Below are positions 4,028 to 22,985 of a stretch of 23,245 bases of DNA, in pieces. The stretch is taken from positions 1-23,245 of IMG/VR virus record IMGVR_UViG_3300028608_000083. One strand, given 5' to 3'. The notes below the pieces were generated by a model. The model ran no database searches. It worked only from the letters and a program-made list of their open reading frames with translations, and had not been told where the DNA came from. The DNA comes from a virus. Position 1 is the first letter of the stretch. Each line of letters starts with the position of its first letter. The position numbers and the translations under genes were made by a program.

Positions 4028-4660
4028 ATGGGTTTACTAAACAAACTGATATCCTTCTTCACTAAAAAGGAAGACTCTGAGATAGGGTATCTTGTAGGGT
4101 CAATGAATCACTCTTTAGAGAAGATAGTAGAAGAGATGACCGAGATGGAGCTACACTCAGTAGTCACTTCCTGTACTGGGGAGTGGCTAGACTCTTGGGG
4201 TAAATGGTTTGGTGTCCCTAGGGAATCTGGAGAAGAGGACGCTACCTACAGACCTAGGATACTGGAATCTGTTACTATGAAGAAGGTCACTATACCTGCC
4301 CTTATAGATGCCGTAAAGAGAGCATTGGGAGCAGACACCGCAATACAAATAGAGGAGACTTATCAAGACCTGAGAATCTGGAATGTCTCTACCTATAGCG
4401 GTACAGGTAAGTACCAGGATTCAGATACAATACGATTAGGAATTGTTAGGATTATTATTAATAAAGAGCCTAATGATAGGTTACGGGAAGAAATATGGAA
4501 GACTAAAGCTTCTGGTGTACGTGTAATATTTGAGGTACGATTGACTATAAACGGTGGGAATTTCAATTCTCCATATATCGGTGATGGTTTAGATGGAGGT
4601 ATCTTCACAGATACTACAGTAGATAAAATTGTGGATGGAGGTACTTTAAATGGCAGATAA
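4028..4660 (+). CDS. Baseplate protein gpI / XkdU-like (DUF2313-type), spike adaptor
   Basis: A 210-aa protein directly after gpJ, the place of P2 gpI and PBSX XkdU, which link the wedge to fibres. The middle carries GEWLDSWGKWFGVPRESGEED, then YRPRILESV and IPALIDAVKRALG, a pattern typical of this group in Firmicutes phages. From about residue 175 the chain becomes Gly/Asp-rich with two related elements (DGGIF and DGGTLNG), probably a short beta tail that contacts the first spike. GGGGTGA at 4017-4023 precedes the ATG. The 3' end overlaps the following spike gene by 11 bases, and its last Gly-Gly codons (GGAGGT, 4637-4642) double as that gene's Shine-Dalgarno sequence. Confidence 0.75.
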   Translation: MGLLNKLISFFTKKEDSEIGYLVGSMNHSLEKIVEEMTEMELHSVVTSCTGEWLDSWGKWFGVPRESGEEDATYRPRILESVTMKKVTIPALIDAVKRALGADTAIQIEETYQDLRIWNVSTYSGTGKYQDSDTIRLGIVRIIINKEPNDRLREEIWKTKASGVRVIFEVRLTINGGNFNSPYIGDGLDGGIFTDTTVDKIVDGGTLNGR

Positions 4661-6611
4661 AATACAGATACGAAGAGGGCTAAAAGCTGACTTAAATGAG
4701 CTGTCCCTTGGGGAATTTGGATACTGTACTGATGCGGATGAGCTGTTTATAGGCTCTGTGGCTGGTAATAAGCTCATAACAGATAAGGTTTTGATTCAGG
4801 CAATGAAGGACGCTATTGATGCCTTAGAATTGGAAATAGGCACCACTGTAAAGAAGGTAAACGGAGTCCTACCTGATGCTAATGGATTCATCACAATTGA
4901 TACCTCGGATGCTGGGCTGGGGGATATCACTCAACTACCTACTGCGGATAAATCTAATGTTGTTAACGCAATCAAGGAGCAGTCTACTCTCATAGGTGAC
5001 AAAGCTACTAAGGTGGATATGAAAGCAGACCTAGAGCAATATGGAGTGGACGTACGGAAGTTTGGTGCGGTAGGTGATGGTGTGGCAGATGATAGCACTG
5101 CCTTAGAAGCAGCCTGCACCTATGCCAAGACCAACAACATGATTTTCTTTATACCAGACAAGATGAATTGTAAGATAACTAAGGATATTAACTTACATCC
5201 ATTGAAGAAAGTTAACATTCGAGGTACCATAACTGGAGCTACTAACCTTACTGTAACAATAGGGTGGCACTCTACACAGGCACTCCCAACAGACTACTGG
5301 ATTGATAGGATATCTGGCCCTACCCTGAAGGTAATGGGTGTAAAGAATGCTGATGTTCGCATAGGTAGTGCAACTAAACTTTTGCTATACGCTAATGGAG
5401 ATAGTACCCTAACCGACTCCCTTGCATACAGCAGGTTCACACTAGGTCAGACCACTGATGTAGAGATATTTTCAGAGGGTACTACTCCTGCTTGGATAAA
5501 CGAGAACTCCTTCATAGGTGGACGTATAACCAAGCTCAAGATTAGCGGTAACTACACCCACAACCATAACAAGTTCATCAACCCTGCAATAGAAGGAGCC
5601 ACTATAGAGATTGTACGTGGTGCGGATAACATCTTTGAAAATGTACGTTTTGAGGGTACAAACGACATCATATTCAGGGATTTGGCTAGTAATAACAAAT
5701 TCTTCCATACTTGGAGGTCTGGTGTGGCTGGTCAGGCTTATGACAATATATACACTGTACAACCGTCTATTGACGAAGGTGTAGGTAATCAGATAATCAA
5801 CTCTGTACAGAGGGATATGGAAGTTACTAAGATTGTAGATCTGAACAGTGAGAGTAGAAACATAGACTTATCTAAGATGGAAAGGTCAGATGACGGTTCC
5901 CTTGTATACGGAGGATTTGTTGGAGCTATCTATGAAAGCCCTATACTTCCAATAGAAGCCTTTGGATTCAACTTAGACAGCGATGCCCAAATCTTCAGAA
6001 CTAGGATTTCCCTATTTGATGAGAATAAGAACCCTATTCAAGACGATTCCATCATAACAGGTTCAGGATTCTACTATACAGGCTCTTATTATACTCAGGG
6101 AGCAAACATCAAAAAGGCAAGATTAGCTATATCTAAAAAAGGGTCTATTGCTAAGTACTTCCAAGTGTCCCTACGTGGTGGAAATAGTACTACAGGGGTT
6201 AAGATTGGGTATTGCACAGTTCATCTAGTCTACAAGTCAACTGCCAATCTGGGTGCTCTAATCACTTCTTTTGATAACCAAATGAGGTTGGTAGGTAATA
6301 ACCCGCCTTCTAGTGGTTACTGGGAGACTGATAAGTTCATAGGCAGGAAAGTCCTAACTGCTGGTAGTACTATGGGTTGGGCTTGCACTACCGCAGGTTT
6401 GGCTAACAATACTCCTTGGGTGCCTAGCACTGCTTACCTACTTGGGCAAAGAATTAATGCCAATGGTAAGGTATATGAATGTGCAATCGCTGGTACTTCC
6501 GGGGCTACCGCTCCTTCCCACGCCTCAGGTTCAGTAGCGAATGGGACAGCCACGTTTAAATATGTAGATGTCTTAGCAGTTTTTAGTGAGTATGGATTAA
6601 TCAGTGAATAA
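4650..6611 (+). CDS. Tail spike 1: Mtd-type N-terminal domain, beta-helix, C-terminal sugar-binding-like module
   Basis: A 653-aa receptor-binding or depolymerase-type tail spike. Residues 1-45 (KIQIRRGLKADL, then LGEFGYCTDADELFIG) match the short N-terminal domain first described in the Bordetella phage Mtd protein and common in Gram-positive phage fibres, probably the baseplate anchor. A linker with LPTADKSNVVNAIKE follows. From residue 133 the pectate-lyase-fold signature DVRKFGAVGDGVADDSTALE starts a right-handed beta-helix to about residue 400. The C-terminal 110 residues contain a GYWETDKF...MGWACTTAG element, then W.PSTAYLLGQRINANGKVYEC and AGTSGATAPSH, similar to carbohydrate-binding modules of the CBM5/12 type. 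A related C-terminus recurs in spike 4. Whether it cleaves glycan cannot be decided; no catalytic residues were identified. Confidence 0.8.
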   Translation: MADKIQIRRGLKADLNELSLGEFGYCTDADELFIGSVAGNKLITDKVLIQAMKDAIDALELEIGTTVKKVNGVLPDANGFITIDTSDAGLGDITQLPTADKSNVVNAIKEQSTLIGDKATKVDMKADLEQYGVDVRKFGAVGDGVADDSTALEAACTYAKTNNMIFFIPDKMNCKITKDINLHPLKKVNIRGTITGATNLTVTIGWHSTQALPTDYWIDRISGPTLKVMGVKNADVRIGSATKLLLYANGDSTLTDSLAYSRFTLGQTTDVEIFSEGTTPAWINENSFIGGRITKLKISGNYTHNHNKFINPAIEGATIEIVRGADNIFENVRFEGTNDIIFRDLASNNKFFHTWRSGVAGQAYDNIYTVQPSIDEGVGNQIINSVQRDMEVTKIVDLNSESRNIDLSKMERSDDGSLVYGGFVGAIYESPILPIEAFGFNLDSDAQIFRTRISLFDENKNPIQDDSIITGSGFYYTGSYYTQGANIKKARLAISKKGSIAKYFQVSLRGGNSTTGVKIGYCTVHLVYKSTANLGALITSFDNQMRLVGNNPPSSGYWETDKFIGRKVLTAGSTMGWACTTAGLANNTPWVPSTAYLLGQRINANGKVYECAIAGTSGATAPSHASGSVANGTATFKYVDVLAVFSEYGLISE

Positions 6612-6629
6612 CCTATGGAGGTGTAAGAC

Positions 6630-8237
6630 ATGGCATTTAAAATAGGCAAAAACATAGCCCCCCTTAATGAAATTATAGCGAATATACAGGACAGAGGAGT
6701 TAACGTAAAATACCCTCCTGTGCCGATGGTAGGCGCAAAAGGCGATAACGCAATAGATGACACGCAGGTATTTAAAAACTTACTAGCAGACAGCACTATG
6801 GATCTTTTGATCATCCCAATTGGTACCTATGTCATTTCAGACACGCTGGTAATAAACCGACCTGTCACCATTATTGGAGCAGATAAGATGAGCACGACTC
6901 TAAAGTTGGTAGGCGGTGGTAAGTCGTTGATTCATGTAGCAAAAACAGTCAATACACAGGCTGTTCATCTTTCTAACCTTAACCTAACAGGGACAAAGAC
7001 TTCCGATACAGGGATAACAATTGGAAGCTTCAATAACAATATAAGCCCAATTAATGCCGTAGACTGCTCATTCAAGGATATCAGAATTAGTATGTTCACC
7101 ACCCCCATTAATTGTGAGTGGTCATGGTGTTTAGAATTTGAAAATATTAGGGTTATCAGTTGTACCGATTCTCTTGTTCTATCAAACCAAGCTAATAATC
7201 TCTTATTCAAAAAGTGTAATTTTTCTAGCTGTACAAACGGCATGAAATTAATAAATATCCAAGGGGTTAGCTATGTTGAGTGCTCATTTGAAGGATTGAA
7301 TGAAGTCATCCACTCATCATACTACGCTTTCATTACTATGGTTGCCCCCTATATTGAGAACATAGCTACTCAATCACTAGGAAATTTAAGCTCTGGGTCA
7401 TCATTAGTTATAGAAGGAGGGTATGGGGGACCAACTCCTTTTGGTATAAACATCACTGGCTCTGACTCTAAGCTGTTTGCTGATAATACCACCATTAAGC
7501 TTCTCCCCGCCCACAGTTGGAAAGATGGGACGGACGTTAAGCATCTTAAATTTCTAACAGGGATAAGGGATAGAGGTCATCTATGGGCTTTCGGTGTCCC
7601 TTTTCCAAGAGTCATCAGCAATGCTAATATAGTGTTAAAGAAAAGCAGTAGAGACATCTATTATAGCATTAATCCGTCATCCGTTATCTATAATAGTAAT
7701 ATCCTCACACTCAGTGCTAACACAAGCTACATGATTAGATACAAAGGGAGAGCGGTAACTTCAGGAACACAGGATTGTATTCAGTTGTATTTAAATGCCA
7801 CTACAGACGGAAGTGGGGGTAATGTGGCTTTAGCTGAAAAACGCCTGCATTTTGAAACAGAGTTTGTAGAGAAAGCTTATATTTTTAGCAACACCTATTC
7901 CAGAACACTGTCACTTAACTTCCTAGGCAATAACCCAATTGATTTGAAATATCTATCTATTGTAGAGCTATCTGATGACTATGTAGTAAATGAATCACGC
8001 ATTTACGCAAATGCCATCCCAACACAAGGAGTATGGGAAGTGGGAGATACTCTCTATAACTCTGTACCAGGCACTAGTGGTGTAATCGGCTGGGTTTGCA
8101 TAACAGCGGGTACTCCAGGAACATGGGAGCCATTTGGAATCATAGGAGAAGCCCAAACCGTATTAAAATCGCCTGATGGCTCACGCTTCAAACTAACAAT
8201 AGGCGATGATGGGGCAATAACCTCAACCAAACTATAA
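6630..8237 (+). CDS. Tail spike 2: pectate-lyase-fold beta-helix protein
   Basis: A 535-aa spike-like protein with strong ribosome-binding site GGAGGTG (6615-6621). It has a short N-terminus, then GAKGDNAIDDTQVFKNLL at about 35-52, the usual opening of phage pectate-lyase-fold spikes, followed by beta-helix coils (VTIIGADK, LNLTGTK, LEFENIRVIS, LLFKKCNF, VSYVECSFEG). A beta-sandwich-like stretch (about 360-450) follows. The C-terminus has TQGVWEVGDTLYN with IGWVCITAG, the same element as in spikes 1 and 4 but without the inserted sugar-binding segment, and ends with a short SPDGSRFKLTIGDDG module. Lys codons are mostly AAA here (about 18 AAA to 10 AAG, counted by eye), the reverse of the baseplate genes, suggesting separate acquisition. 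It lacks the Mtd-type N-terminal domain, so its anchoring may differ. Confidence 0.75.
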   Translation: MAFKIGKNIAPLNEIIANIQDRGVNVKYPPVPMVGAKGDNAIDDTQVFKNLLADSTMDLLIIPIGTYVISDTLVINRPVTIIGADKMSTTLKLVGGGKSLIHVAKTVNTQAVHLSNLNLTGTKTSDTGITIGSFNNNISPINAVDCSFKDIRISMFTTPINCEWSWCLEFENIRVISCTDSLVLSNQANNLLFKKCNFSSCTNGMKLINIQGVSYVECSFEGLNEVIHSSYYAFITMVAPYIENIATQSLGNLSSGSSLVIEGGYGGPTPFGINITGSDSKLFADNTTIKLLPAHSWKDGTDVKHLKFLTGIRDRGHLWAFGVPFPRVISNANIVLKKSSRDIYYSINPSSVIYNSNILTLSANTSYMIRYKGRAVTSGTQDCIQLYLNATTDGSGGNVALAEKRLHFETEFVEKAYIFSNTYSRTLSLNFLGNNPIDLKYLSIVELSDDYVVNESRIYANAIPTQGVWEVGDTLYNSVPGTSGVIGWVCITAGTPGTWEPFGIIGEAQTVLKSPDGSRFKLTIGDDGAITSTKL

Positions 8238-8244
8238 GGGGTGA
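8236..8244 (+). promoter_or_regulatory. Ribosome-binding site that fixes the spike 3 start
   Basis: AAGGGGTGA overlaps the stop codon of spike 2. An in-frame GTG at 8241 lies inside this sequence, while ATG at 8250 follows the GGGGTG core by six bases and gives the N-terminus MARHYTKDDLG. The ATG is chosen. Confidence 0.7.
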
Positions 8245-8249
8245 TATTT

Positions 8250-10229
8250 ATGGCTAGACATTATACCAAAGATGACTTGGGTATTGCAATAGTAAAAGAA
8301 TATGGGGCAAAAGGGGATGGGGTATCTCGCCCCTTATCTACTGTGTTTACAACTCTAGTATTAGCCCAAATGAAATACCCTTTTGCTACAGCCCTTACAC
8401 AAGAACTAGACTGGGCGGGTATTCAGTTGGCTTTAAACAGCTCTACTAACGTGTTCATACCAAAGGGTAAATACAACATATCTGACACCCTAGTATTTAG
8501 GGACTTTACAACCCTAACACTGGAAGGAGTAGATACAAGATACAGCACAGGGGAAGAGAACGTAGCCGTACTTACCGCTAAAGCCAATGTAAGGCTAATG
8601 GAGTTGGGTGATGCTTGCCAAGTACTTGGAGGTAAGCTGACTGCAATTGACTTTGCTGGGTACGACAAAAGCATGATTTATATAGATTTCTCTACCAAAA
8701 ACAGAAGTGATATCCACATAGAAACGTCACTACGAGGAAGGTCTGTAGGTAATGCCATAGAAATTTATGGTAACGGTAACGGGGGTACAGCCCACCCTAT
8801 CTTCATAAACAGCAATATCATGAATTTCGATGTTGCTGTAAAAGGAACATACGTAGGGGGTACTTGTTGGTGCACTGGAATAAACGTTGACAGTACAATA
8901 ACCAACTGTGTGCAGAGTGTCAATTTGGATGGTGTTGGTGCTGGTGGTGACCTTCTAGGCTCTTATCAGCCAACCTTTACTGGGACTAGGACAGATAGAG
9001 GAGTAGTGGAGCTTAAGAATGCAGGACACTTCAACATCCATGCTAAGATATGGGATATGAACCAAGCCATCAATAACTACTCAGTAGTATTGAGGAACTC
9101 CACAGAGAATGATATATCCAAACGCATAGATGTTAGGCAAATACTAAACTTGAGTCTAAAACCCCTTTATGCCCCTATTAATAATACATTTCCTTCAGGG
9201 GCTTATACGTTCTATGACAGGATATCAGGAAACAATGAGAACATGCTTTTTGGGGCTAACTCAAAATATACAGTCACCCCGACAGCTAGTGCTAACATCA
9301 GTCTGGTAACTAACTCTAACTATGACCAGTACGGCATGTTCAAAATGGAAGGAAAGCCTACGTACATGTCCCCACTTGCGGCTGGTGCTCTCACCCCTAC
9401 TGAGATGGTGGAATTTGAGGTACTTTTCCCTGAAGCGTCTAAAAGGATACTAGTAGCTGGGTTTAGTTTCTGGTCACATGTACCACCAGTTTCCTATAAG
9501 ATTCATGTCAAGGAGACAGACAATAGCTGGACTCTAGTTGATTCAGGAATCCCATCTGATAAGATTCACATATCTGGAGGGGTACATGACACAGCCATAT
9601 CTGTAAAAGTTGGAGACTATGCTAAAGTCGTGAATGGTATAAGATTTACATTCGAGGTATCTAAAGCAAATGCTGTTGTTATAGACAGTGCTTGGGCTAA
9701 GAGTGGTAACCAGAATGAAGCATATCTTCCTCTGCATGGTGGTAAGATTTACGGAGATGTAGACATGAATAATCGATACCTAACCATAGGTAAGGTTGTC
9801 TCATTACCGACTGCATCTGCAACGTATAGAGGTAAGCAGATCCGTACTGAAGGTGTCACTGGTGTAGCAGAAGTTTCTACCTTGAACATCACGTCAGGAT
9901 GCACGACTCAGGGTAACATAACAATTAATCTAGGCGGAACTCCTTATACGATTAATTTAACCACTGCTGATAACACAGCGGATCTAGTCGCCACAAAAAT
10001 CCGTGCTATAGTCGCAACTGGCTGGACGCTTTCAGGGTCAGGGCAAACTGTAATATTTACAAAAAATAGTACGGGTGTGGTATCGCCTGATGCAACGTAT
10101 ACAGTAGGCTCTACTGGAGCCATTGGGTCTATGACCACCACCACTCAAGGGGTAACAGCTACAGCTGATGCTGTGTACACTTGTGTTAAGAGGTCAGATG
10201 ATACCTACGAATGGATTCAAACAGTATAA
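8250..10229 (+). CDS. Tail spike 3: pectate-lyase-fold beta-helix protein with inserted C-terminal module
   Basis: A 659-aa spike. The N-terminus has VKEYGAKGDGVSRPLSTVF, then YPFATALTQELDWAGIQLAL, the variant in which an extra helical stretch separates the GAKGDG and D-W-A-I-Q parts of the pectate-lyase-like opening. NVFIPKGKYNISDTLVF and further beta-helix coils follow to about residue 330. A beta-sandwich-like domain with VEFEVLFPEASKRILVAGFSFW and YKIHVKETDNSW lies around 380-490. The C-terminal region begins with YRGKQIRTEGVTGVAEV and ends with DAVYTCVKRSDDTYEWIQTV, two halves that commonly form one continuous small module in phage fibres. Here about 95 residues are inserted between them. 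It probably binds host-surface glycan; enzymatic activity is undecided. Confidence 0.78.
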   Translation: MARHYTKDDLGIAIVKEYGAKGDGVSRPLSTVFTTLVLAQMKYPFATALTQELDWAGIQLALNSSTNVFIPKGKYNISDTLVFRDFTTLTLEGVDTRYSTGEENVAVLTAKANVRLMELGDACQVLGGKLTAIDFAGYDKSMIYIDFSTKNRSDIHIETSLRGRSVGNAIEIYGNGNGGTAHPIFINSNIMNFDVAVKGTYVGGTCWCTGINVDSTITNCVQSVNLDGVGAGGDLLGSYQPTFTGTRTDRGVVELKNAGHFNIHAKIWDMNQAINNYSVVLRNSTENDISKRIDVRQILNLSLKPLYAPINNTFPSGAYTFYDRISGNNENMLFGANSKYTVTPTASANISLVTNSNYDQYGMFKMEGKPTYMSPLAAGALTPTEMVEFEVLFPEASKRILVAGFSFWSHVPPVSYKIHVKETDNSWTLVDSGIPSDKIHISGGVHDTAISVKVGDYAKVVNGIRFTFEVSKANAVVIDSAWAKSGNQNEAYLPLHGGKIYGDVDMNNRYLTIGKVVSLPTASATYRGKQIRTEGVTGVAEVSTLNITSGCTTQGNITINLGGTPYTINLTTADNTADLVATKIRAIVATGWTLSGSGQTVIFTKNSTGVVSPDATYTVGSTGAIGSMTTTTQGVTATADAVYTCVKRSDDTYEWIQTV

Positions 10230-10234
10230 CATGC

Positions 10235-10254
10235 ACCCTCTCTACGGAGAGGGT
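10235..10254 (+). other. Intergenic hairpin with UACG tetraloop
   Basis: ACCCTCTC-TACG-GAGAGGGT is a perfect 8-bp stem. Its loop, closed by C-G, is C(UACG)G, a member of the very stable UNCG tetraloop class. It lies between the spike 3 stop and the AGGAGG ribosome-binding site (10261-10266) of spike 4. No T-run follows (AATTATA), so it is not a standard intrinsic terminator. A role in mRNA 3'-end protection or processing between the two cistrons is plausible but inferred. Confidence 0.7.
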
Positions 10255-10274
10255 AATTATAGGAGGGATATCAC

Positions 10275-12398
10275 ATGACTAAAGGCTTTAGTGACTTACG
10301 AACCACTGCTAAAGGATCACTTATTGAGGCTATAAATGAAGTTGCAGGTAGATTGCCACAGGTGTATATTGATGAGCTAGGGGCTAAGGGGGATGGAGTC
10401 ACAAATGATACACTAGCCTTCCAAAAAGCCAGTGACATAATAAATCAGGCTGGGGGAGGTACCCTTATCCTGTCTAACAAGGTGTATATCGTAGGGAAAC
10501 AAACACTTGCTGGGGCAGGTGGTAAAGGGTACTCATACAAACCAGATGACCTGCTATATATACGTAATTGCACAAAACCAGTTGTAATAGAGGGAAGAGG
10601 AGCTGTACTGAAAGCGGACAGTAACCTAAAGTTTGGCTCATTTAACCCTACTACAGGTGCAGTTCATACTCCTACAATGCCATTCACTGACTTAAACTAC
10701 AGGGCAGATGCCTATGTCATGTTGCAGATAGACAACAATAACTCAGTAAATATCAAAGACCTAGACCTTGACGGCAACATAACAGGCATAACCCTGGGTG
10801 GGGAATGGGGAGATTATGGCTATCAGTGTAGAGCCACAGGAGCTAGACTGTTCTCCAATAAGAACTTGGTTATGGAAAATGTTAACTCCCACCACCATGC
10901 ATTAGATGGCTTCTCTATATGGTACTCTCTAGTCGAATCTGATGAGAGAAAACCACACACCCTCCTAAACTGTACTGCTGAATATAATGCTCGCCAAGGG
11001 TTATCTTGGACAGGTGGGATTGGATTAACTGCCATAAACTGCAAGTTCAACCACACAGGTAAGGTGAGGTTCAGCTCTGAGCCTGGAGCAGGGGTAGATA
11101 TAGAGGCAGAGAATACAGTATGTAGAGAAGGGGTATTCCTGAACTGTGAGATGATAAATAACACAGGTTCTGGAGTTGTTAGCTACTCTGGAGATGGAGG
11201 GTACACAACCTTCAAGAAATGTACTATCTGGGGTAATACAGGAGCAGCAGTCAGCCCATATAGACCAGGTTTAGTATTTGAAGACTGTAAAATCTATGGC
11301 AGGATTACAAATCCTTATGGTAGTAATGACCCCCTAGAAGCTACAAAATTTATAAGATGTCGCATAGAGGACAAAAACCATCCAGTGTATGGAATACAAA
11401 TAGGAACTTACCTAATAGACATCAATGCTCATAATGTACTCTTTGAGGGCTGTACTCTGGTCAACAACTACCAGAAGCTGATTATAACAAGTGGAAGCGA
11501 TACTGTTGAGATATTTAGAGATTGTAAGTTCATCTTTAAATATAGTCAGTTAGCAGATAAGGGTTCACAAGCCATATTCTATGGTTCTAGGTTTGAGGAT
11601 GTAACATTCTCAGATGCATACACCACCCCACCAGCTACCGCATATTTTATAGATATCCCAGGATATTCAGTTCAGGTTGTAGGGAATGTCCTAGTGGATG
11701 CAACTTACACTAAGTGGTTCTCTTGGTCTACTGGTGGTGCAGGCATGAGTGGAAACATAGGCTCTCAAGTAAATAAGGCACAAAAATTCCTGTCTATCCA
11801 CAAGAGACTGTACAACTCCACTTACCATGGACAGATCCTAATTGGTGCCCATAATGCAGTGCCTACATCAGGAACATGGGGAAAAGGGGATTTTGTATTT
11901 AATGAGTCCTCCACCATAGGTGGGTCTATAGGTTGGTCATGTGTAACTGGAGGGGATGCCAATGCAACACCTTGGGTAGCCACCACAGCATACACAGTAG
12001 GCAATCTAGTCAATGCCAATGGGAAAGTTTATAAGTGCAGTGTGGCTGGAACTAGTGGTGCTACGCCACCTTCCCACTCAACAGGGACAGTGGTAGATGG
12101 CACGGTCTCATGGGATTACGTCAATACACTGGCAGTATTTAGTGAAGCAGGTAAAGTTCAGACTGTGAAGTCAGGCACCATTACCTATAATGGTGATGGA
12201 GTTGCTACAACAAAAACCATTGCTCATGGTCTAGGTACAACTCCATCATACTATGCTGTTAATGAGTCTAGTTTAGATGCTGGTAACGCTGAGGTCAAGT
12301 TTCTAACAGCGGATGCCACCAACATAACGGTCACGTTTAAAACAGCCCCTATCACAGGCACCAACAACGTTAAGCTAAATTGGAAAGCTGAAATTTAA
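10275..12398 (+). CDS. Tail spike 4: large pectate-lyase-fold protein with C-terminal binding modules
   Basis: A 707-aa spike, the largest of the four. The N-terminus has DLRTTAKGSLIEAINEVAGR, the helical linker motif common in phage fibres, then DELGAKGDGVTNDTLAFQKA at about 33-52 opening the beta-helix. The helix body has many N/D-C-x-hydrophobic turns (LLNCTAEYNARQG, TAINCKFNHTG, VFLNCEMINNTGSG, TFKKCTIWGNTG) typical of right-handed beta-helices. The C-terminus has PTSGTWGKGDFVFNE, IGWSCVTGG, then NANGKVYKCSVAGTSGAT, closely related to spike 1. A final domain (TKTIAHGLGTTPSYYAVN to the end) resembles the small beta domain often found at the tip of phage fibres. AGGAGG lies eight bases before the ATG. 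It is the last gene before a strong terminator. Confidence 0.82.
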   Translation: MTKGFSDLRTTAKGSLIEAINEVAGRLPQVYIDELGAKGDGVTNDTLAFQKASDIINQAGGGTLILSNKVYIVGKQTLAGAGGKGYSYKPDDLLYIRNCTKPVVIEGRGAVLKADSNLKFGSFNPTTGAVHTPTMPFTDLNYRADAYVMLQIDNNNSVNIKDLDLDGNITGITLGGEWGDYGYQCRATGARLFSNKNLVMENVNSHHHALDGFSIWYSLVESDERKPHTLLNCTAEYNARQGLSWTGGIGLTAINCKFNHTGKVRFSSEPGAGVDIEAENTVCREGVFLNCEMINNTGSGVVSYSGDGGYTTFKKCTIWGNTGAAVSPYRPGLVFEDCKIYGRITNPYGSNDPLEATKFIRCRIEDKNHPVYGIQIGTYLIDINAHNVLFEGCTLVNNYQKLIITSGSDTVEIFRDCKFIFKYSQLADKGSQAIFYGSRFEDVTFSDAYTTPPATAYFIDIPGYSVQVVGNVLVDATYTKWFSWSTGGAGMSGNIGSQVNKAQKFLSIHKRLYNSTYHGQILIGAHNAVPTSGTWGKGDFVFNESSTIGGSIGWSCVTGGDANATPWVATTAYTVGNLVNANGKVYKCSVAGTSGATPPSHSTGTVVDGTVSWDYVNTLAVFSEAGKVQTVKSGTITYNGDGVATTKTIAHGLGTTPSYYAVNESSLDAGNAEVKFLTADATNITVTFKTAPITGTNNVKLNWKAEI

Positions 12399-12406
12399 GT
12401 GTAAGG

Positions 12407-12440
12407 TAAGGAGACAATCTCATTGTCTCCTTATTCTTTT
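12407..12440 (+). terminator. Intrinsic terminator after the spike array
   Basis: TAAGGAGACAAT, loop CTC, ATTGTCTCCTTA: a perfect 12-bp stem followed by TTCTTTT. It sits nine bases after the spike 4 stop. The remaining 63 bases up to the next gene contain no convincing sigma-70-type promoter; TATAAG at 12444-12449 and TACGAT at 12467-12472 are weak possibilities without a matching -35. Confidence 0.88.
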
Positions 12441-12503: not shown

Positions 12504-15500
12504 ATGGCTAGTATAGATAGAAATCAAGCACCCTATTATGATGACTATGATCCTAGTAAAAACTATACTCACATGCTTGCTGTACCAGGTAACGTGGAAC
12601 AAGCTAGGGATTTTACTCAATTGCAGTCTATGATATTCGATTATCTCCAAAGGCTATCAAGCACGCTACTTAAGGATGGAGCTATCATGGCAGGTATGAA
12701 CTTTGCTATTAAGGACTCCACTATCCTCATAGAGAGCGGTAGAGTGTACCTTAATGGGAAAATCCATATGTTCCAAGAGCAAGAGATACCATTTACTAAG
12801 ACGGGATTAGAAGTAATAGGTGTCAAGCTGAATGAGTATATTGTTACCGAAGCTGAGGACATTACTCTATTGGACCCTACCACAACTACTGGTAACTATG
12901 GACAGCCTGGTACTCATAGGATTAAGAGTGAGATTGTTCTAACAAACAATGACCCTGAATCCTCTATGTTGTATGAGTTTGAAGATGGTGGTCTAAAAGC
13001 TGAGATAGATAGACCTAACTTCGATGGGTTATCTGACCTACTAGCTAGACGTACCTACGATGAGTCAGGTAACTACAGAGTGAGTGGTTTATCTTTAGTA
13101 GCCGAACCTCATGATGCTAACAATATCCGTATCATAGTAGAGCCAGGAGTAGCTTACGTAAAAGGATACCAGCACATTAAGCCAACTCCGATTAAGACAA
13201 TTGTACCTATGGCTAAAGAATACCATTCTGTAGTTGGTGAGCCACACACTTATGTTTTCCCTACAGTTAAGTATTTGCTGAACAACTTCCCTGCAAGAGC
13301 TATAAATCGTATCACAGCCTACGTACAGGTTACACAAACTCTTACTAGGGGGTCACAGACAGGTGGAGTGGACGTACTTGCTAGCACTCCTGTAGCAGAC
13401 ATACTACTGGTTCAAGCAGGAGCAACAACATATACGAAGAACACTGACTATAAGCTGACTAATGATACCATAGACTGGAGTCCAGCAGGTGCAGAACCTG
13501 CACAGGGTACTTCATATACTATTACTTACCTAACCAATAAGACCTTGGTACAAGGAACTGATTACAAGCTGTTCCAAGAAGTAGGTAGCTTTGGTGAGAC
13601 TAAGGACTATGTAGAGTTCCTATCTGGGGACAGACCTGTTAACAATGGTACTTTCTATGTAGATTATGACTTCTATCTTGGACGTATTGACTTGGTGTCT
13701 CTAAGCAAGACTGGAGAGGTTGTCATTACTACTGGTGCTAGTGCTATTCCTAGCAACTTGAAACCACCAGTGCCTACAAACCCTGAGTTGTTACCTCTAG
13801 GTATAGTCAAGTTCAACCCTAATAGTGGTGAAGCTATTCCTACGTTCAACTCTATAACGAGGCTAGATATGTCACAGCTTCAGAATATGTTGAAGCGGGT
13901 AGAGGACTTAGAGTTCAACCAGGCTATAACATCCTTAGATAAAGAAGCAATTGAAGGGGAAGTGTCTACCGACCTTAGGGGAATATTCTCTGATAGTTTC
14001 CGTTCTATTGTGCGTGGTGACTTTGACCATCCATCCTTCAATATAACATATGACTTGGAAACAGGTACACTCTGGTTACCTACTGACACTGTCAACACTC
14101 ATACGCCAGTAGTACAAAACCCCGCATCCATTAAGACATGGAGACGTTTAGCTACAGTTCCTATGTTGGAGAAGGTAGCGGTCAACCAGAATACAGCCAC
14201 AACATCTATGCTAGTTAATCCTTATCTTGCCTTCAATGCTATGGGTGTGCTTAAGCTCAAACCAGAAAGAGACAACTGGATAGAGGATACTTACATCAAG
14301 CTAGACAAGGTGGTATTCAAAGCTAGAAACTTCCGTAGATGGTGGAGACATGCTGATGACCCTAGCTATAAGAAATCAGTGCAGGACTTGTTTGACTTAT
14401 CCCTTGATGGTAAAGGCACTGTAGATGACTGGAGACCAGCTATAGGTGATACTGGTGTTGCTACCAAGGTAACAAGCTCTAAGAAGGTTCTACAAGAGGC
14501 TATTACGTACATGAGACGTATAGATGTAGAAGTAACTGCTACTAACCTTAAACCAAGTGCTGACAATCTAGAGTGTACATTTGATGGGGTGAGAGTACCA
14601 TTAACACCAGTTTCTCCATCCACTGCGGGCAGTGTGTCAGGTACTATCAAAGCCAATACTTCTGGTTTGGCTAAAGGTAAGTTCACTATACCAGCTAACA
14701 TAAAAACAGGTACGAGGGAAGTAATTCTTAGCAACTCTGGTAACACAGCGTCTTCTGCATTTACTTCACTTGGAACTAAGAGAACTACAACAGAGACTAT
14801 TACCACTACTAGGATAACGCTTACTGCTGTTGACCCATTAGCACAATCCTTCCAGTTTGACAGGGAAACGACTTTGACATCCGTTGGAGTGTACTTTTCT
14901 GGTAAGGACAACACTAACAACATCCTATGCCAAATCAGAAATGTGGTCAATGGTTACCCAGGAAACGTTGTCTATGCAGAGACTGTAGTAGCTCCTAGTT
15001 CAATGAACGTGAGTGCAAATGCCTCTATTGAGACTAAGATTTCCTTTGATGAGCCTGTGACATGTGAAGCAAATACTCAGTACTGTATGGCTTTCCTAAC
15101 TGACTCAGACACTCACTCTATGTATGTGTCAGACTTGGGTGGTAAGGACGTAACTACAGGACAAAAGGTTTTAAGACAGCCTTACTTAGCTGGTATGCTG
15201 TTTAGCTCATCTAATGGCATCACTTGGACAGCTCACCAGTCTATGAATATGAAGTTCAAGATATACGTGGCTTCATTCAATGCATCATCCACTCTAGATT
15301 TTGTAGAGCAATCCGGTCTTAACATTGACTCCCTAGTGTTAATGGCAGATACTGTTGTTCCAGTAGGGTGTGAGTGCAAATGGCAGGTGAGTATAGATGG
15401 TGGAACCTATACTGATATTACTCCTGAAGAGGACATAGACCTCATTAAGTCTTCTAGTAGAGTCAAGCTAAGGGCTGTGCTTAAGTCAAGTGGAGATATG

Positions 15501-15863
15501 TCTCCTATTATAGCCCTAGACAGTCTGAATGTAGTGTCCTTCACCACAGGGCTGAATGGCACCTATGTAGGTCGTAACGTAGACTTAACAGACCCTATCA
15601 CCAGTGTAACTCAGGTGTTTGATGCGTTCATCCCTAGTGGGTGTACTGTAACTCCACAGTTCAGCTATAACAATGGTACATCTTGGATTACTCCTACTCA
15701 GGTTAGTGTAGAGCCTGTTTCAGCAGAATACTCTAGGTACACTTGTACAGCTTCTATAGCATTAGGACAGAATGCTTTAGACTTCAGAGCTAGGCTGAAC
15801 ATAGTCTCAGGCAGCAGAACCCTTAGACCTAGGGCAAGAAGATTCGTTAACATCATGAAATAG
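12504..15863 (+). CDS. Large DUF4815-type baseplate / tail fibre protein
   Basis: A 1119-aa structural protein. The N-terminus (PYYDDYDPSKNYTHMLAVPG, then ARDFTQLQSMIFDYLQRL) matches DUF4815-type proteins, which occur in baseplate or fibre clusters of many large myoviruses. It is followed by a beta-rich region with IESGRVYLNGKIH and VEPGVAYVKGYQ, repeated linker-like elements (TYTKNTDYKL, TLVQGTDYKL) and a coiled-coil-like LKRVEDLEFNQAI at about 465. From about residue 777, DPLAQSFQFDRETTLTSVGVYF introduces a domain family known from other large-phage structural proteins, ending in FVNIMK. It probably forms an outer baseplate or connector part. GGGAGG lies seven bases before the ATG. The gene is bracketed by terminators on both sides, so it may be an independent transcription unit or be reached by read-through. 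Confidence 0.78.
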   Translation: MASIDRNQAPYYDDYDPSKNYTHMLAVPGNVEQARDFTQLQSMIFDYLQRLSSTLLKDGAIMAGMNFAIKDSTILIESGRVYLNGKIHMFQEQEIPFTKTGLEVIGVKLNEYIVTEAEDITLLDPTTTTGNYGQPGTHRIKSEIVLTNNDPESSMLYEFEDGGLKAEIDRPNFDGLSDLLARRTYDESGNYRVSGLSLVAEPHDANNIRIIVEPGVAYVKGYQHIKPTPIKTIVPMAKEYHSVVGEPHTYVFPTVKYLLNNFPARAINRITAYVQVTQTLTRGSQTGGVDVLASTPVADILLVQAGATTYTKNTDYKLTNDTIDWSPAGAEPAQGTSYTITYLTNKTLVQGTDYKLFQEVGSFGETKDYVEFLSGDRPVNNGTFYVDYDFYLGRIDLVSLSKTGEVVITTGASAIPSNLKPPVPTNPELLPLGIVKFNPNSGEAIPTFNSITRLDMSQLQNMLKRVEDLEFNQAITSLDKEAIEGEVSTDLRGIFSDSFRSIVRGDFDHPSFNITYDLETGTLWLPTDTVNTHTPVVQNPASIKTWRRLATVPMLEKVAVNQNTATTSMLVNPYLAFNAMGVLKLKPERDNWIEDTYIKLDKVVFKARNFRRWWRHADDPSYKKSVQDLFDLSLDGKGTVDDWRPAIGDTGVATKVTSSKKVLQEAITYMRRIDVEVTATNLKPSADNLECTFDGVRVPLTPVSPSTAGSVSGTIKANTSGLAKGKFTIPANIKTGTREVILSNSGNTASSAFTSLGTKRTTTETITTTRITLTAVDPLAQSFQFDRETTLTSVGVYFSGKDNTNNILCQIRNVVNGYPGNVVYAETVVAPSSMNVSANASIETKISFDEPVTCEANTQYCMAFLTDSDTHSMYVSDLGGKDVTTGQKVLRQPYLAGMLFSSSNGITWTAHQSMNMKFKIYVASFNASSTLDFVEQSGLNIDSLVLMADTVVPVGCECKWQVSIDGGTYTDITPEEDIDLIKSSSRVKLRAVLKSSGDMSPIIALDSLNVVSFTTGLNGTYVGRNVDLTDPITSVTQVFDAFIPSGCTVTPQFSYNNGTSWITPTQVSVEPVSAEYSRYTCTASIALGQNALDFRARLNIVSGSRTLRPRARRFVNIMK

Positions 15864-15937: not shown

Positions 15938-16099
15938 ATGCCTAAAATGATTGTACGCCCAAGTGGGGGAATTGTATTTGAATCTACTAAAGAAGAAAGA
16001 GAAGTACGAGCAATGAAGGAAGACTTACGTAAGGAGTTAGATGCTGTCAAGGGACTTAAAGAAGAGTTACTTAATCTAAAGAAAACACTGGAGGGATAA
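15938..16099 (+). CDS. Small coiled-coil protein, 53 aa
   Basis: ATG 15938 to TAA 16097-16099, preceded by an almost ideal ribosome-binding site AAGGAGGT at 15924-15931. The protein begins MPKMIVRPSGGIVFE, a short beta-like segment, and then forms one charged amphipathic helix (residues 18-53) rich in Glu, Lys and Leu (LRKELDAVKGL, EELLNLKKTL) that fits a coiled coil. There is no signal peptide or membrane segment. It stops three bases before the 1302-aa fibre gene, so the two are very probably co-translated. I do not recognise a family. A fibre chaperone or a small baseplate/fibre adaptor would suit the position; this is inference only. Confidence 0.75.
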   Translation: MPKMIVRPSGGIVFESTKEEREVRAMKEDLRKELDAVKGLKEELLNLKKTLEG

Positions 16100-16102
16100 C
16101 AG

Positions 16103-19100
16103 ATGCCTGTAAGTAAAATAAAAATAAACGGTAAGATGTACCCTATCGGTGGCAGTGTTAGTGCGGAGACTATAGCCCAGCTAAAGGGTGACCTTAGTCG
16201 GTACGTTGACGAATTGAATGCACTAATGGCAGAGGAAATAGCAGGAATAAACACTGCACTGGGAGAGCTTAACACCTATGTAGATGGTGCCTTCAAGGAT
16301 GGAATAATATCAGAAGCAGAGGCAAAGGCTATCAAGTCCTACCTAATGACTCTAGAATCCAAGAAAATAGAGCTGGACAGAGAATATAGCGACCTCTATG
16401 GTAATGTGTATATAAACGCAGAGAGCATAGGCATCATGGAGTCTGCTAAGGACTTGTATGACCAGGCTTATATACAGCTCGTCAATGCAATAGTTGATAG
16501 CATTGCAGATGGAGTATCCGATATAACAGAAACCACTTTAGTTAAACAAGCCTTCACTAACTATAAGAATGCATTGTCCTTATTGGTTTCCGCTTTGCAA
16601 ACAGCTATACATCAGATAGCTCAGGCAAAGGTAGACGAGTCAGATAGTGAGTTACGTGAGCACGTTGCAGGTACTATAGCTCCTATTAGTGAGAAGGTTA
16701 CAGCTATGGAAACTACTGTGAATCAAACAGCAGAGGACATTACTTTCTTAGCTACAAAAGAAGAGGTAACAACTCAGTTTGGTTTGGCTAAGAGTGGGGC
16801 TGTAGCAGATGCTAAGACCTACGCTGATGGGCTTAAAGCAGATACCGATGCTGACTTAGAAACCTTGAATACAGCACTGACAGACATAGATAGCTACGTT
16901 GATGGTGCCTTTAAGGATGGTCTAGTAACAGCACTAGAAGCATCCACTATTGAGGCTTACATCAAGCAATTGGATACTATGAGAGCAACCTATGACGCCA
17001 GATACCAGCAGATATATGCCAATACCTACCTGAAAACAGCTCTAGTCAAAACTAATCTGTCCCAGTCCAAGACAGACTATGAATCAAAATACACTCTTCT
17101 AGTGGATTCCATACGCAATGCTGTTCTTGATGATGAAGTATCTATGGAGGAGAAGTCCGATGTAGATAACAAATTCCTAGACTATGACAATTCCATAAAA
17201 GTCCTAGCTCTTCGCTTAGAGGATGCTATTGATGACATAGCCAAGAACAAAGCACTGGAAGCCGAGGGTAATGCTAACGATTATACTGATGGGGAGCTAG
17301 TACCTGTTAAGGAAACTATATCCCAGCACTCCGCAGAGATAAAAGTCAATGCAGAGCAGTTGCTATTAAAGGTTAGTACTGAAACATATGACAAAGGAGT
17401 AGGGGACTTAGAAAAGTATACTAAAGGTATAAAGTCTCAAATCAAGTCAGAGGTAGCTGTACTGGAACAGGGAGTATTAGACACTCGCAACCTAATAAAC
17501 ACCTACTTTGCAGATGGCATTGTCTATGAGGCAGAGAAGAAGAAAGTAGAGGAGTTCCTTGCTAGCGTAGCTAGTTACAAACTCAAAGTGGATGCCAAAT
17601 ACAATGAAGTGTATGGTAATATCTGGTTGCTTGGCACTCAGAAGACTAACCTTAGTACTTCCAAGACCAATGCAGACAACAAGCACACAGCTCTAGCAAC
17701 TGTTATCACTGATGCCATAGCAGATGGGTTAGCTAGTGGATTAGAGGCTGATTCGGTAGGTACAGCTTTTACTGAATTTAGCTCCGCTATAGCCCTACTA
17801 TCTTCAGAGCTAATAAAGTCTGTAGACTCCATAACCAATGCCAAAGTCTCAGACGCTACAGATACAGCTAATGAGTACGGGGATGGTCTTAAAGCCCAGA
17901 TAGCACCTGTGAAAGCTGACTTGGATAGTGACTTATTAGCTGTACAGACATATGTGGATACATCATTCAGTGATGGTTATATAACAACCTTGGAGTCGGA
18001 TACTCTGGATTCTTACATTGTTACCCTACAAGCATCGAAGACGACATATGACGAGTTATATGCTCAGCTATATGCAGACCCAGATTTAGAAGGATTGCCT
18101 AAAGCTAAACTGGATTCTGCTAAGTCTTCCTACAACACCAAGTTCAATACAGTCATCTCTAGCATCAACAGCGCTAAGACAGATGGGGCTGTATCAACTT
18201 TAGAGGTAGTGGCTGTAGACAGTGCTTTCAGTGAGTATCAGTATGCAGACAGCACCCTTAACACCAGCTTAGACAAGGCTATAGATTCCCTAACTCTAAC
18301 TAAGTCATTGAAAGCCCAAGCAGATGCAGAGTTGTATGCTGATGGTGCAGTTGACCCTCTAGCTACCAGGCTCAGAATGGCTGAAGCTAGTATATCTCTC
18401 TTAGATGATGAGATTGCCCTTAGGGTTGGTGAGGAAGTAAACAGCAAGATAGATGAGTCTATGCAGAACCTCAATGTAGTTGGACGTAACCTGGTCTATA
18501 ACTCTACCTTCATGAAGGACTTTGAGGGGTGGACAGGGGTTACAACAGACTTCACTATCATATACCCTGAGCTAGAATCTGATAAGACCACTTCTAGGGC
18601 GGTGAGTAGGTCTGCAAGCGGTCTGGTAGCTAACGCAAACAAACAGATATGGTCTAAACCCTATGAGGTTAATGCTAATGGTACTCAGCAGTTCACTATA
18701 TCCTTTGACATAAAGGTTACTAGTCTAGCCGCAATGGATACAGACAATGTTGTTTTCGTTGTTAGGACATTTGATGACCCAGACAAGACCTCACAGGCAG
18801 ATAGCGTATGGTTTGTTAACATCTACAAGAGCAAGATAGTTAAGGCAGGACTAAAGGACAACACTTGGATGAGATACTCTACGGTAATTAAGCCTTTAGC
18901 TGGCAAATATATCAAAGTTGCTCCTTATCTAGCTAGGAATGGCGAAGTATTTTGGAAAGAGATTAAGCTAGGAGCAGGTAACAAAGACTATGCTTGGACA
19001 CCTGCACTTGAGGATACTGACCAAGTTATATATAACCTAGAGAAAACAGTTAGTGAGGCTATGCTGAAGATAAGACCTGAATCTATCATAGGTACTGTAA

Positions 19101-20011
19101 TCAGCTCAAAAGAGTATACAGACTCCCTAGATGGAAAAGCTGATGCAGATAAATTAGCAGGTCTAGCTACAACTGCTGATATAGAGACTGCAATGCTGGA
19201 TCTTAGTACCATCATAGGCAACAACGACATCAACTATAACAGTCAGCTAGCCATTTTAGCCTCTCAGGTCACTCAGACAGCAGAAGACTACAAAATTGCC
19301 TTTGCTAACGGTGGTGGTGTGAATCTGCTTATGAACTCTGTAGGATTCAAGGGCACAGATTTCTGGACGGTTACAGGTTCAGTCAATACCTATCAAGGCA
19401 TAGAGCTAGATGTCAGGGGGTCTAGGAGTGCATTCATACTTACTGGGGGCACACTGACACAGCAGATAGCTGTTATCCCTGGCTCGTATATACTTTCTAC
19501 AGTAGTTAAGAAAGAGGCTACAGGTGCTGGCTCCATAACTGTAATAGGTGCTGATTCAGGTACTGTAGTACGTGACTTCGTTGCGGGTACTGAGTATGTA
19601 TATGAGAAAGTCGAAATTCCTATAGTGACCCAAGGGAACATAATAGAAATACAGCTATATGGGGATGCGACCAGTAACATAATATTTACAAGTACTATGG
19701 TTAATGAGGGCTTGGTGGCTCTGAAATGGTCTAACCATGCTACGGAATTATATAATACCAACATACTACTGGACATCAATGGTATAAAGGTTATATCCAC
19801 TGAGTATGATGGATACACTAACATAACCCCTAAAGAGTTCTCTGGGTATGCTAGGGTAGATGGGGAAATGAAGAGGGTATTCACTCTCAACAAGGACGTT
19901 ACAGAAATGAATAGAGTGAAGGTAGAAGGAGAGATAAACATGCCTCCTGTAGTGGTGAGAGCTATAAACACCCAACAGTACAAGGGCTGGGCTTTCCTAC
20001 CTTCCGATTAA
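16103..20011 (+). CDS. Long tail fibre with four helical repeat units and two beta-sandwich modules
   Basis: A 1302-aa fibre, the largest gene here. After a short N-terminus (ININGKMYPIGG-like, residues 6-17), residues about 50-765 hold four related alpha-helical units. Each starts with a Y-V-D-x-x-F-x-D-G-hydrophobic motif (near residues 58, 264, 467 and 616), followed by E-A-x-x-I helices, a Y..LY segment and a second D-hydrophobic helix pair. Such units recur in minor structural and fibre proteins of Bacillus-group phages. Residues about 790-980 (VGRNLVYNSTFMKDFEGW) and 1072-1210 (GVNLLMNSVGFKGTDFW) look like two related jelly-roll carbohydrate-binding-type modules. The C-terminus (LLDINGIKVIS to GWAFLPSD) resembles tail ends of Gram-positive phage fibres. 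No peptidase motif was recognised. Probably a long, flexible receptor-binding fibre. Confidence 0.8.
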   Translation: MPVSKIKINGKMYPIGGSVSAETIAQLKGDLSRYVDELNALMAEEIAGINTALGELNTYVDGAFKDGIISEAEAKAIKSYLMTLESKKIELDREYSDLYGNVYINAESIGIMESAKDLYDQAYIQLVNAIVDSIADGVSDITETTLVKQAFTNYKNALSLLVSALQTAIHQIAQAKVDESDSELREHVAGTIAPISEKVTAMETTVNQTAEDITFLATKEEVTTQFGLAKSGAVADAKTYADGLKADTDADLETLNTALTDIDSYVDGAFKDGLVTALEASTIEAYIKQLDTMRATYDARYQQIYANTYLKTALVKTNLSQSKTDYESKYTLLVDSIRNAVLDDEVSMEEKSDVDNKFLDYDNSIKVLALRLEDAIDDIAKNKALEAEGNANDYTDGELVPVKETISQHSAEIKVNAEQLLLKVSTETYDKGVGDLEKYTKGIKSQIKSEVAVLEQGVLDTRNLINTYFADGIVYEAEKKKVEEFLASVASYKLKVDAKYNEVYGNIWLLGTQKTNLSTSKTNADNKHTALATVITDAIADGLASGLEADSVGTAFTEFSSAIALLSSELIKSVDSITNAKVSDATDTANEYGDGLKAQIAPVKADLDSDLLAVQTYVDTSFSDGYITTLESDTLDSYIVTLQASKTTYDELYAQLYADPDLEGLPKAKLDSAKSSYNTKFNTVISSINSAKTDGAVSTLEVVAVDSAFSEYQYADSTLNTSLDKAIDSLTLTKSLKAQADAELYADGAVDPLATRLRMAEASISLLDDEIALRVGEEVNSKIDESMQNLNVVGRNLVYNSTFMKDFEGWTGVTTDFTIIYPELESDKTTSRAVSRSASGLVANANKQIWSKPYEVNANGTQQFTISFDIKVTSLAAMDTDNVVFVVRTFDDPDKTSQADSVWFVNIYKSKIVKAGLKDNTWMRYSTVIKPLAGKYIKVAPYLARNGEVFWKEIKLGAGNKDYAWTPALEDTDQVIYNLEKTVSEAMLKIRPESIIGTVISSKEYTDSLDGKADADKLAGLATTADIETAMLDLSTIIGNNDINYNSQLAILASQVTQTAEDYKIAFANGGGVNLLMNSVGFKGTDFWTVTGSVNTYQGIELDVRGSRSAFILTGGTLTQQIAVIPGSYILSTVVKKEATGAGSITVIGADSGTVVRDFVAGTEYVYEKVEIPIVTQGNIIEIQLYGDATSNIIFTSTMVNEGLVALKWSNHATELYNTNILLDINGIKVISTEYDGYTNITPKEFSGYARVDGEMKRVFTLNKDVTEMNRVKVEGEINMPPVVVRAINTQQYKGWAFLPSD
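16255..18385 (+). repeat. Four degenerate protein-level repeats inside the long fibre gene
   Basis: Unit starts lie near 16274 (TYVDGAFKDG), 16892 (SYVDGAFKDG), 17501 (TYFADG) and 17987 minus about 40 bases (TYVDTSFSDG, from 17948). The spacing is about 206, 203 and 150 residues. The first two intervals contain an additional coiled-coil-like spacer of about 50 residues (ISEKVTAMETTVNQ and ETISQHSAEIKVN) that is absent between units 3 and 4. DNA identity between units is low, so the repeats are old or have diverged under selection. Confidence 0.7.
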
Positions 20012-22426: not shown

Positions 22427-22442
22427 TAGGAGGGATGAGAAG

Positions 22443-22820
22443 ATGAAGAAGCAGTATATACAAATAGATGCAGAAAACAGAGTAACAGGCATAGGCAGTA
22501 CTCCATTTGCAGTAGAGATATTAGTCGAACTAGAGGATTCCCATGAAGCTCTAAAAAACCCCTTCATATTCAAATATGAAGGAGGTCAGCTTATCAAGGA
22601 TGTTGAATTTCAGCAAGAGCGTATAAAGGATAAAGAAGAGAAAGCAAAGCTACCCTCTACTGCACACAGGCTTTCTATGCTAGAGGAGCAGAATGCAGGG
22701 CTAATGATGGAACTCATCATGAAAGATATAGCTCTGGAGGAGAAGTCCGCCATGATATCATCTATGGATGAGATTAGTTCCTCTTTGTTGTTAGACCTTG
22801 CTGTAAAGGGGGTGATATAA
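22443..22820 (+). CDS. XkdW-position tail protein with coiled coil
   Basis: A 125-aa protein between the last fibre and the XkdX gene. Residues 1-55 (KKQYIQIDAENRVTGIGSTP, then YEGGQLIKD) form a small beta domain of the kind seen in short proteins following fibres in Firmicutes phages, where an acidic substrate value is parsed as D-A-E-N-R. Residues about 57-115 are an amphipathic helix (FQQERIKDKEEKAKL, HRLSMLEEQNAGLMMELIMKDIALEE). In PBSX the corresponding place is XkdW, but I do not see clear sequence similarity, so no symbol is given. It may be a fibre-associated protein or chaperone. AGGAGG at 22428-22433 precedes the ATG, and its stop codon directly abuts the XkdX start. Confidence 0.65.
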   Translation: MKKQYIQIDAENRVTGIGSTPFAVEILVELEDSHEALKNPFIFKYEGGQLIKDVEFQQERIKDKEEKAKLPSTAHRLSMLEEQNAGLMMELIMKDIALEEKSAMISSMDEISSSLLLDLAVKGVI

Positions 22821-22985
22821 ATGGATTGGTACTCAACTATATCACGATACTATAAATTAGGGTACTATGATAACGACCCTGAGTCTCCAAAGTATGTAGG
22901 ACTATTTGTTAAAGCAGGTAAAATAACACCAGCCCAATACACTCAGATAACAGGGACTAGCTACATAGCCCCATTCGGAGCCTAG
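22821..22985 (+). CDS. xkdX: XkdX family protein
   Basis: A 54-aa protein, ATG immediately after the preceding TAA, with GGGGGTGAT as ribosome-binding site. It shows the whole XkdX pattern: MDWYSTISRYYKLGYYDN, then VGLFVKAGKITPAQYTQITG and a Y-containing end. XkdX proteins are very small and are almost always the last gene of the tail-fibre cluster in Firmicutes phages, just before holin and endolysin. Their function is unknown. That position is kept here. The final codons and stop lie within the left arm of a terminator hairpin, so the 3' end of the gene is also an RNA structure. Confidence 0.88.
   Translation: MDWYSTISRYYKLGYYDNDPESPKYVGLFVKAGKITPAQYTQITGTSYIAPFGA

Follow-up and report, generated by a model that had tools for sequence, protein, structure and literature searches.

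A four-spike array behind the baseplate protein gpI of a Herelleviridae phage fragment, and a candidate DGG-motif dock for Mtd_N receptor-binding proteins

A key finding from our sequence analysis is that the baseplate protein gpI encoded on a 23.2-kb virus fragment from IMG/VR (IMGVR_UViG_3300028608_000083; "the window" hereafter means the whole 23,245 nucleotides analysed) ends in three evenly spaced DGG-type motifs, and that the next gene, the first of four consecutive tail spike genes (S1 to S4), encodes the only one of the four spikes with an N-terminal Mtd_N domain. The main value of the array lies in this gpI triplet, the cleanest instance we found and one that reveals a candidate code for the attachment of Mtd_N proteins. 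We consider it reasonably probable, with room for doubt, that the locus represents an inserted four-spike cassette in which the gpI triplet docks S1 through Mtd_N and S2-S4 attach elsewhere. Attachment of several different spikes to a single baseplate has been understood chiefly in phages of Gram-negative hosts, via T4-gp10-like branching domains. If our reading is true, the pairing of DGG tail and Mtd_N would be a second, much smaller attachment code, legible from sequence alone; it would account for the symmetry match of wedge protein and trimeric spike, and annotators could use it to pair receptor-binding proteins with their carriers in many uncultured phages.

On its left, the fragment holds the module for the distal tail and baseplate of a Herelleviridae phage, whose nearest named relatives have Exiguobacterium and Bacillus as hosts. 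Its gpJ is 49% identical to that of Exiguobacterium phage vB_EalM-132 and ~40% identical to those of SPO1 relatives, and the Herelleviridae baseplate order LysM/gp14.1 - gpJ - gpI (baseplate wedge 3, BW3) - DUF4815 - fibre is present with homologous proteins. A preliminary description of this DNA was correct in seeing a multi-spike array in a Gram-positive-type baseplate (here of the SPO1/TmpF/TmpG type), and in placing four consecutive, intact spike genes right after gpI. On the + strand, as are all features given here, gpI (4028..4660), with a TmpF-like N-terminal domain and a C-terminal extension of ~40 residues, overlaps by 11 nt the start of S1 (4650..6611; 653 aa), which comprises an Mtd_N anchor, a stalk, a beta-helix body and a C-terminal CBM5/12-like module (Pfam; PHROG tail fiber). 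S2 (6630..8237; 535 aa) has a short N-terminal peptide, a beta-helix body and a C-terminal module; S3 (8241/8250..10229) combines a tailspike-type N-terminus with an orphan body, and starts either at GTG 8241 (662 aa) or, likelier given its better ribosome site, at ATG 8250 (659 aa); and S4 (10275..12398; 707 aa) has a beta-helix body, a CBM5/12-like module and a terminal 76-aa module. The four genes run in the same direction with gaps of 12-45 nt, each has a GGAGG-type ribosome site, and a terminator-like hairpin with a U-rich tail (12405..12435; -17 kcal/mol, z -4.2) closes the gpI-S4 unit. No RNA families or tRNAs were found in a scan of the window.

The first conserved gene past the array encodes a DUF4815 baseplate protein of the TmpG / A511 gp106 family (12504..15863; 1119 aa; Pfam 4e-161), which matches its counterpart in PDB 9EUF across its whole length (E 1e-214). 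Two further fibre systems had been said to follow the array; two fibre-like proteins do lie downstream (starts 16103 and 20024), but the DUF4815 protein comes first. Between the DUF4815 gene and the fibre gene after it, a 53-aa ORF (15938-16099) has the position of SPO1 gp17.1 and of the small "chaperone" of Deep-Blue/Vp4. The 1302-aa fibre at 16103-20011 contains repeated, alpha-helical-looking segments of ~190 residues each, and over its N-terminal 800 aa it shares 36% identity with a fibre of an Exiguobacterium phage. The region 20024-22985 holds an 800-aa DUF859-type fibre, then a 125-aa protein, then a 54-aa protein matching phrog_134.

All four spikes had been described as beta-helix proteins opening with a GAxGDG-type motif. 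The motif, at the helix cap and in the form GAxGD, is indeed present in each (residue 139 of S1, preceded by an anchor region of ~130 residues; 35 of S2, as GAKGDN; 19 of S3; and 36 of S4), and the fold has good or fair support for S1, S2 and S4. S2 (Pfam Pect-lyase, residues 34-224, 36.1 bits vs a cut-off of 27) and S4 (Beta_helix, 52.3 vs 25.9 bits) exceed the Pfam thresholds, and S1 is narrowly below its beta-helix cut-off (25.9 vs 27 bits), with residues 133-528 resembling phage depolymerase-type tail proteins and with similarity to phi92 gp150 as well. Structure prediction, which had been put forward as the check on the fold, went part of the way: an S4 model built with one relative (mean pLDDT 43) has the beta-helix tailspikes Sf6 and CBA120 TSP3 among its best PDB matches, and this low-confidence model may add a little backing. 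S3 is sub-threshold in Pfam. Its first ~150 residues match two tailspikes of known structure, LKA1 gp49 (4RU4, E 8e-13) and phi297 gp27, which suggests a beta-helix for that stretch; its status is partial because the remaining body is an orphan and the single-sequence model reaches a pLDDT of 31.

As the preliminary description had it, the spike bodies share no obvious mutual similarity. Relatives of the S1 body are found in Pasteurella and Vectrevirus spikes, of S2 in Paenibacillus phage PG1, of S3 among Pseudomonas D3/LKA1-type spikes, and of S4 in TM7, Acinetobacter and Vibrio phages; no close relatives of S1, S2 or S3 were found among viral contigs, and none of S3 among bacterial genomes. 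The bodies are of independent origin and related to spikes of very different phages, a pattern to be expected if their polysaccharide targets differ. Their resemblance to solved depolymerases is distant, and they probably degrade or bind polysaccharide. The lack of similarity does not hold for the C-termini, however: residues 550-651 of S1 (6297..6602) are 53% identical over 102 aa to residues 527-628 of S4 (11853..12158; E 4e-32), and a segment of S2 (residues 461-494; 8010..8111) is common to S4, with 47% identity, and to S1. Pfam recognises CBM5/12-like modules on both S1 and S4, and the terminal 76 aa of S4 are 68% identical to the C-terminus of Eldridge gp089. The ends of the spikes are modules that have been shuffled. 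In S3, whose C-terminal module is comparable to the end of Goe8 gp212, a domain (NITSGCTTQGNITINLGGTPYTINLTT...) at 9870-10226 seems to split a common fibre C-terminal module (LPTASATYRGKQIRTEG...ADAVYTCVKRSDDTYEWIQTV).

In the nearest relatives, namely Exiguobacterium phage vB_EalM-132 and the IMG/VR loci L002-L005 and L007, gpI adjoins DUF4815 with no spikes between, and the window therefore holds an insertion of ~7.8 kb. The BW3TFN protein (~170 aa) is absent between gpI and DUF4815 in the window; since the same relatives also lack it, this protein is neither universal nor defining. Arrays at the same site occur in several Bacillus phages. For example, Eldridge (gp081-gp087; Bastillevirinae) has gpI with DGG-type repeats of period 14 in its tail, four consecutive beta-helix proteins (gp082-085) led by Mtd_N spikes, and then DUF4815. 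Where the window has one Mtd_N spike and one repeat cluster, Eldridge has two of each; its array is also separated from DUF4815 by a BW3TFN gene (gp086), and its spike bodies are unrelated to those of the window. Mater, f2b1 and Moonbeam likewise have gpI repeats and multi-gene spike arrays from gpI to DUF4815, but with mixed enzymes (SGNH esterase, endosialidase-type, carboxypeptidase, glycosidase) in place of four beta-helix proteins. Mater has one hypothetical gene and five of spike type (one for an esterase, one for a protein of endosialidase type and three with a pectin-lyase-fold spike annotation), f2b1 has five genes and Moonbeam two; in SPO1, beta-helix spikes lie further downstream. 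Multi-spike arrays in Herelleviridae are, therefore, real and recurrent. We found no paper in the literature describing them as such, and the window's array is a further member of a recurrent but little-described kind, not a unique case.

The likeness to CBA120 drawn in the preliminary description stands as an analogy, in that the CBA120 / Ackermannviridae complex also has four beta-helix spikes in one cluster with one distinctly anchored (PMC11414711), but Eldridge, Mater and f2b1 are closer precedents. The window differs from that complex in virion family and anchor and in having no recognised gp10-like XD or TD domains. How all four spikes could attach had been raised as a puzzle, with only the first carrying an Mtd-type anchor. 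The anchor is indeed confined to S1 (Mtd_N, PF18454, residues 4-43; 4659..4778; E 1e-6; 29.0 bits vs a gathering score of 26.3), for which gpI now offers a candidate docking triplet, and for S2-S4 no site was found. No N-terminal anchor was recognised in S2-S4 by Pfam; only 18-35 residues precede their helix caps, with no TD-type N-terminal domains, and these N-termini have weak relatives only, those of S2 and S4 being in known phages. The non-Mtd_N spikes of Bacillus phage arrays fall into several classes with conserved short N-termini, including an ML[DE]RPDxFM-like class (Eldridge gp084, Mater 149, f2b1 18611, Moonbeam 85) and an MxRxDITKYPG class (Mater 150, f2b1 16641), which suggests that each class has its own short peptide for its own site of attachment. 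Spike attachment via short peptides has been modelled for Klebsiella phages (PMC6872550), and S2-S4 likely attach in the same manner, at sites other than that of S1. Two tandem beta-helix spikes at another locus (L012, 30-3155) share the N-terminal peptide MS[KN]ALxNxxKLxDxVSVKDFGA, a further sign of short-peptide anchoring.

Alternatively, perhaps S1 is the sole anchored spike of a CBA120-like branched complex, with S2-S4 hung on its N-terminal 130 residues. The combination of a single anchored spike and others whose N-termini are short matches the anchor-branched model for Klebsiella, G7C and Ackermannviridae phages (PMC6872550, PMC11414711), and S1 has a stretch of ~90 residues from Mtd_N to the helix cap that could serve as a platform. 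However, Pfam detects the T4-gp10/XD branching domain in none of the four spikes, and spikes without Mtd_N, which in arrays of Bacillus phages bear conserved N-terminal peptides of their own, are also found past DUF4815 and where the array has no Mtd_N protein (SPO1 gp19.1, Goe8), so S2-S4 need not hang on an Mtd_N spike. We regard a branched complex as unlikely, though still a serious contender. A daisy chain, in which the C-terminus of each spike docks the next, was also considered and is ruled out, the ends of S1-S4 having no DGG motif.

That no anchor is recognised in S2-S4, and that known phages offer only weak matches to the N-termini of S2 and S4, would also suit a different reading, in which some of S2-S4 are not virion proteins at all but spare or decaying spike genes, or depolymerases freed at lysis. 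Four intact frames with ribosome sites, in one unit closed by a terminator, speak against it, and the spikes of SPO1 and Klebsiella phages have N-termini that are equally short; we think this reading rather unlikely, and favour the view that all four spikes would be part of the virion, with S2-S4 held by their short N-terminal peptides.

Homology of the window's gpI to baseplate wedge 3 proteins is clear from its match to TmpF of Staphylococcus phage 812 (PDB 9EUF, E 6e-15), and BW3 is known to attach receptor-binding proteins (PMC11406892). The N-terminal domain is homologous in TmpF and in Listeria A511 gp105, but those proteins carry long C-terminal fibre domains in the same chain. The gpI of the Exiguobacterium phage, to which that of the window is 54% identical, ends at residue 171, and those of spike-less relatives end at 171-181 aa, so that the window's gpI is ~40 residues longer. 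This tail contains three copies of h-[DN]-G-G-x-[FL] (core [IVL]-[DN]-G-G-x-[FL]) with a period of exactly 14 residues, directly 5' of the S1 gene: INGGNF (residues 174-179; 4547..4564), LDGGIF (188-193; 4589..4606) and VDGGTL (202-207; 4631..4648), each a candidate docking motif. No shuffle of the tail scored as high (0/20000), and no paper that we found in the literature describes this motif in a phage context.

Within the gpI family, for which we used annotated phage genomes together with IMG/VR contigs retrieved by gpI alone, every relative with an Mtd_N protein downstream has a period-14 triplet (scores 16-23, the window's being the cleanest at 23), whereas relatives whose gpI-DUF4815 interval is without Mtd_N all score <=14, none with a triplet. 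The latter include phiAGATE, of the same subfamily as Eldridge, and phages 676Z and LP-048, which stand here for the TmpF / A511 gp105 type, have neither DGG triplet nor Mtd_N spike. The triplet was gained in only about three independent lineages. Two motif clusters, the first copy often degenerate, are present in gpI of Eldridge, f2b1, Mater, SIOphi and L240 (motif spacing 14-17 in L240). Triplets and Mtd_N genes stand at 1:1 in the window, BSP15, Goe24, 278BB001 and Moonbeam and at 2:2 in Eldridge and f2b1; a rule that the number of triplets equals that of Mtd_N spikes holds in these seven cases but is broken by Mater (2:3) and by SIOphi and L240 (both 2:1), so the number of copies per gene is not fixed.

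The association extends beyond gpI. When loci were picked by Mtd_N, the motif occurred within the last 80 residues of the protein in 12 of 19 upstream-protein families, compared with 8 of 146 other proteins from these loci (p 8e-9). These unrelated upstream proteins share with gpI this motif alone, mostly as a single C-terminal copy, and the window's gpI-S1 pair has the same arrangement, in which a protein with a C-terminal DGGxF-type motif is encoded directly upstream of an Mtd_N protein. In the reverse direction, at least 123 DNA matches to IDGGTF followed by a stop were found in viral contigs, and all 123 are in-frame protein ends. Among the matches listed, the next protein is Mtd_N-like at 67/98 sites, compared with 29/924 controls. 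One family supplies 69 of these 98 listed sites; the per-sequence value (p 4e-59), inflated by related sequences, was discarded in favour of the family-level comparison, again among the matches listed (8/26 vs 20/642, p 3e-6). Among the matches listed, 15 of 112 downstream proteins reach E 0.01 with Pfam's Mtd_N profile, and the others were scored with our own consensus (MAxxIxxKRS...GExAxNxxDxxLY); part of the Mtd_N-like count rests on that pattern because the Pfam profile misses these proteins.

We infer from this pattern that Mtd_N domains dock on the DGG peptides. A receptor-binding cassette would have been inserted between gpI (BW3) and DUF4815 of a Spounavirinae-like phage, encoding four structural tail spikes with exchangeable C-terminal sugar-binding modules and bringing its own dock, the ~40-residue gpI tail with its three 14-residue repeats. 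S1 would be held by its N-terminal Mtd_N domains, bound to these repeats, and S2-S4 would probably use their short N-terminal peptides to attach to S1 or to another part of the baseplate. One motif per fibre chain in other phages and three in tandem in gpI suggest a symmetry match, such that a single gpI chain would seat one S1 trimer. It is tempting to speculate that C-terminal DGGxF peptides and Mtd_N domains work as a plug and socket by which receptor-binding proteins are held in tailed phages generally, with fibres, presumably trimeric, offering one peptide per chain and gpI three in tandem, 14 residues apart, to seat a three-fold spike; this generalisation is tentative, and we would put it somewhat below an even chance. 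That the repeats are instead a structural spacer or beta-roll of gpI travelling with spike cassettes, S1 binding another part of gpI, is improbable: the fixed 14-residue period does resemble a structural repeat, and co-occurrence by itself is no proof of contact, but a spacer would not explain why unrelated upstream proteins in other phages have just this motif, mostly in one C-terminal copy. We searched for motif and Mtd_N fused in one chain, and for a solved structure with an Mtd_N of the S1 type, perhaps with its partner, and found neither. Mtd of Bordetella phage BPP-1 has an N-terminal domain of the Mtd_N family; unlike S1, its receptor-binding end is diversified by a retroelement, and the protein upstream ends in DLGGIA, not DGGxF.

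Several further observations concern the distribution of the motif. Environmental phages commonly encode proteins with an exact IDGGTF ending (viral contigs L095-L213, e.g. L149, L211 and L120), and the next protein often has an N-terminus resembling Mtd_N (KRS/RRG...GELAINT.DGKLY); in a second, non-Mtd_N class, coiled-coil or other proteins come next. One 71-kb IMG/VR contig (loci L021, L018, L017 and L016) has genes for four Mtd_N proteins (768-1055 aa) in a stretch of ~27 kb; an IDGGTF-ended protein precedes the first of them and not the other three. In SIOphi (L217), the motif cluster at gpI residues 423-502 is doubled together with the flanking NVKIDSMKNY, apparently through a recent tandem duplication or an assembly effect.
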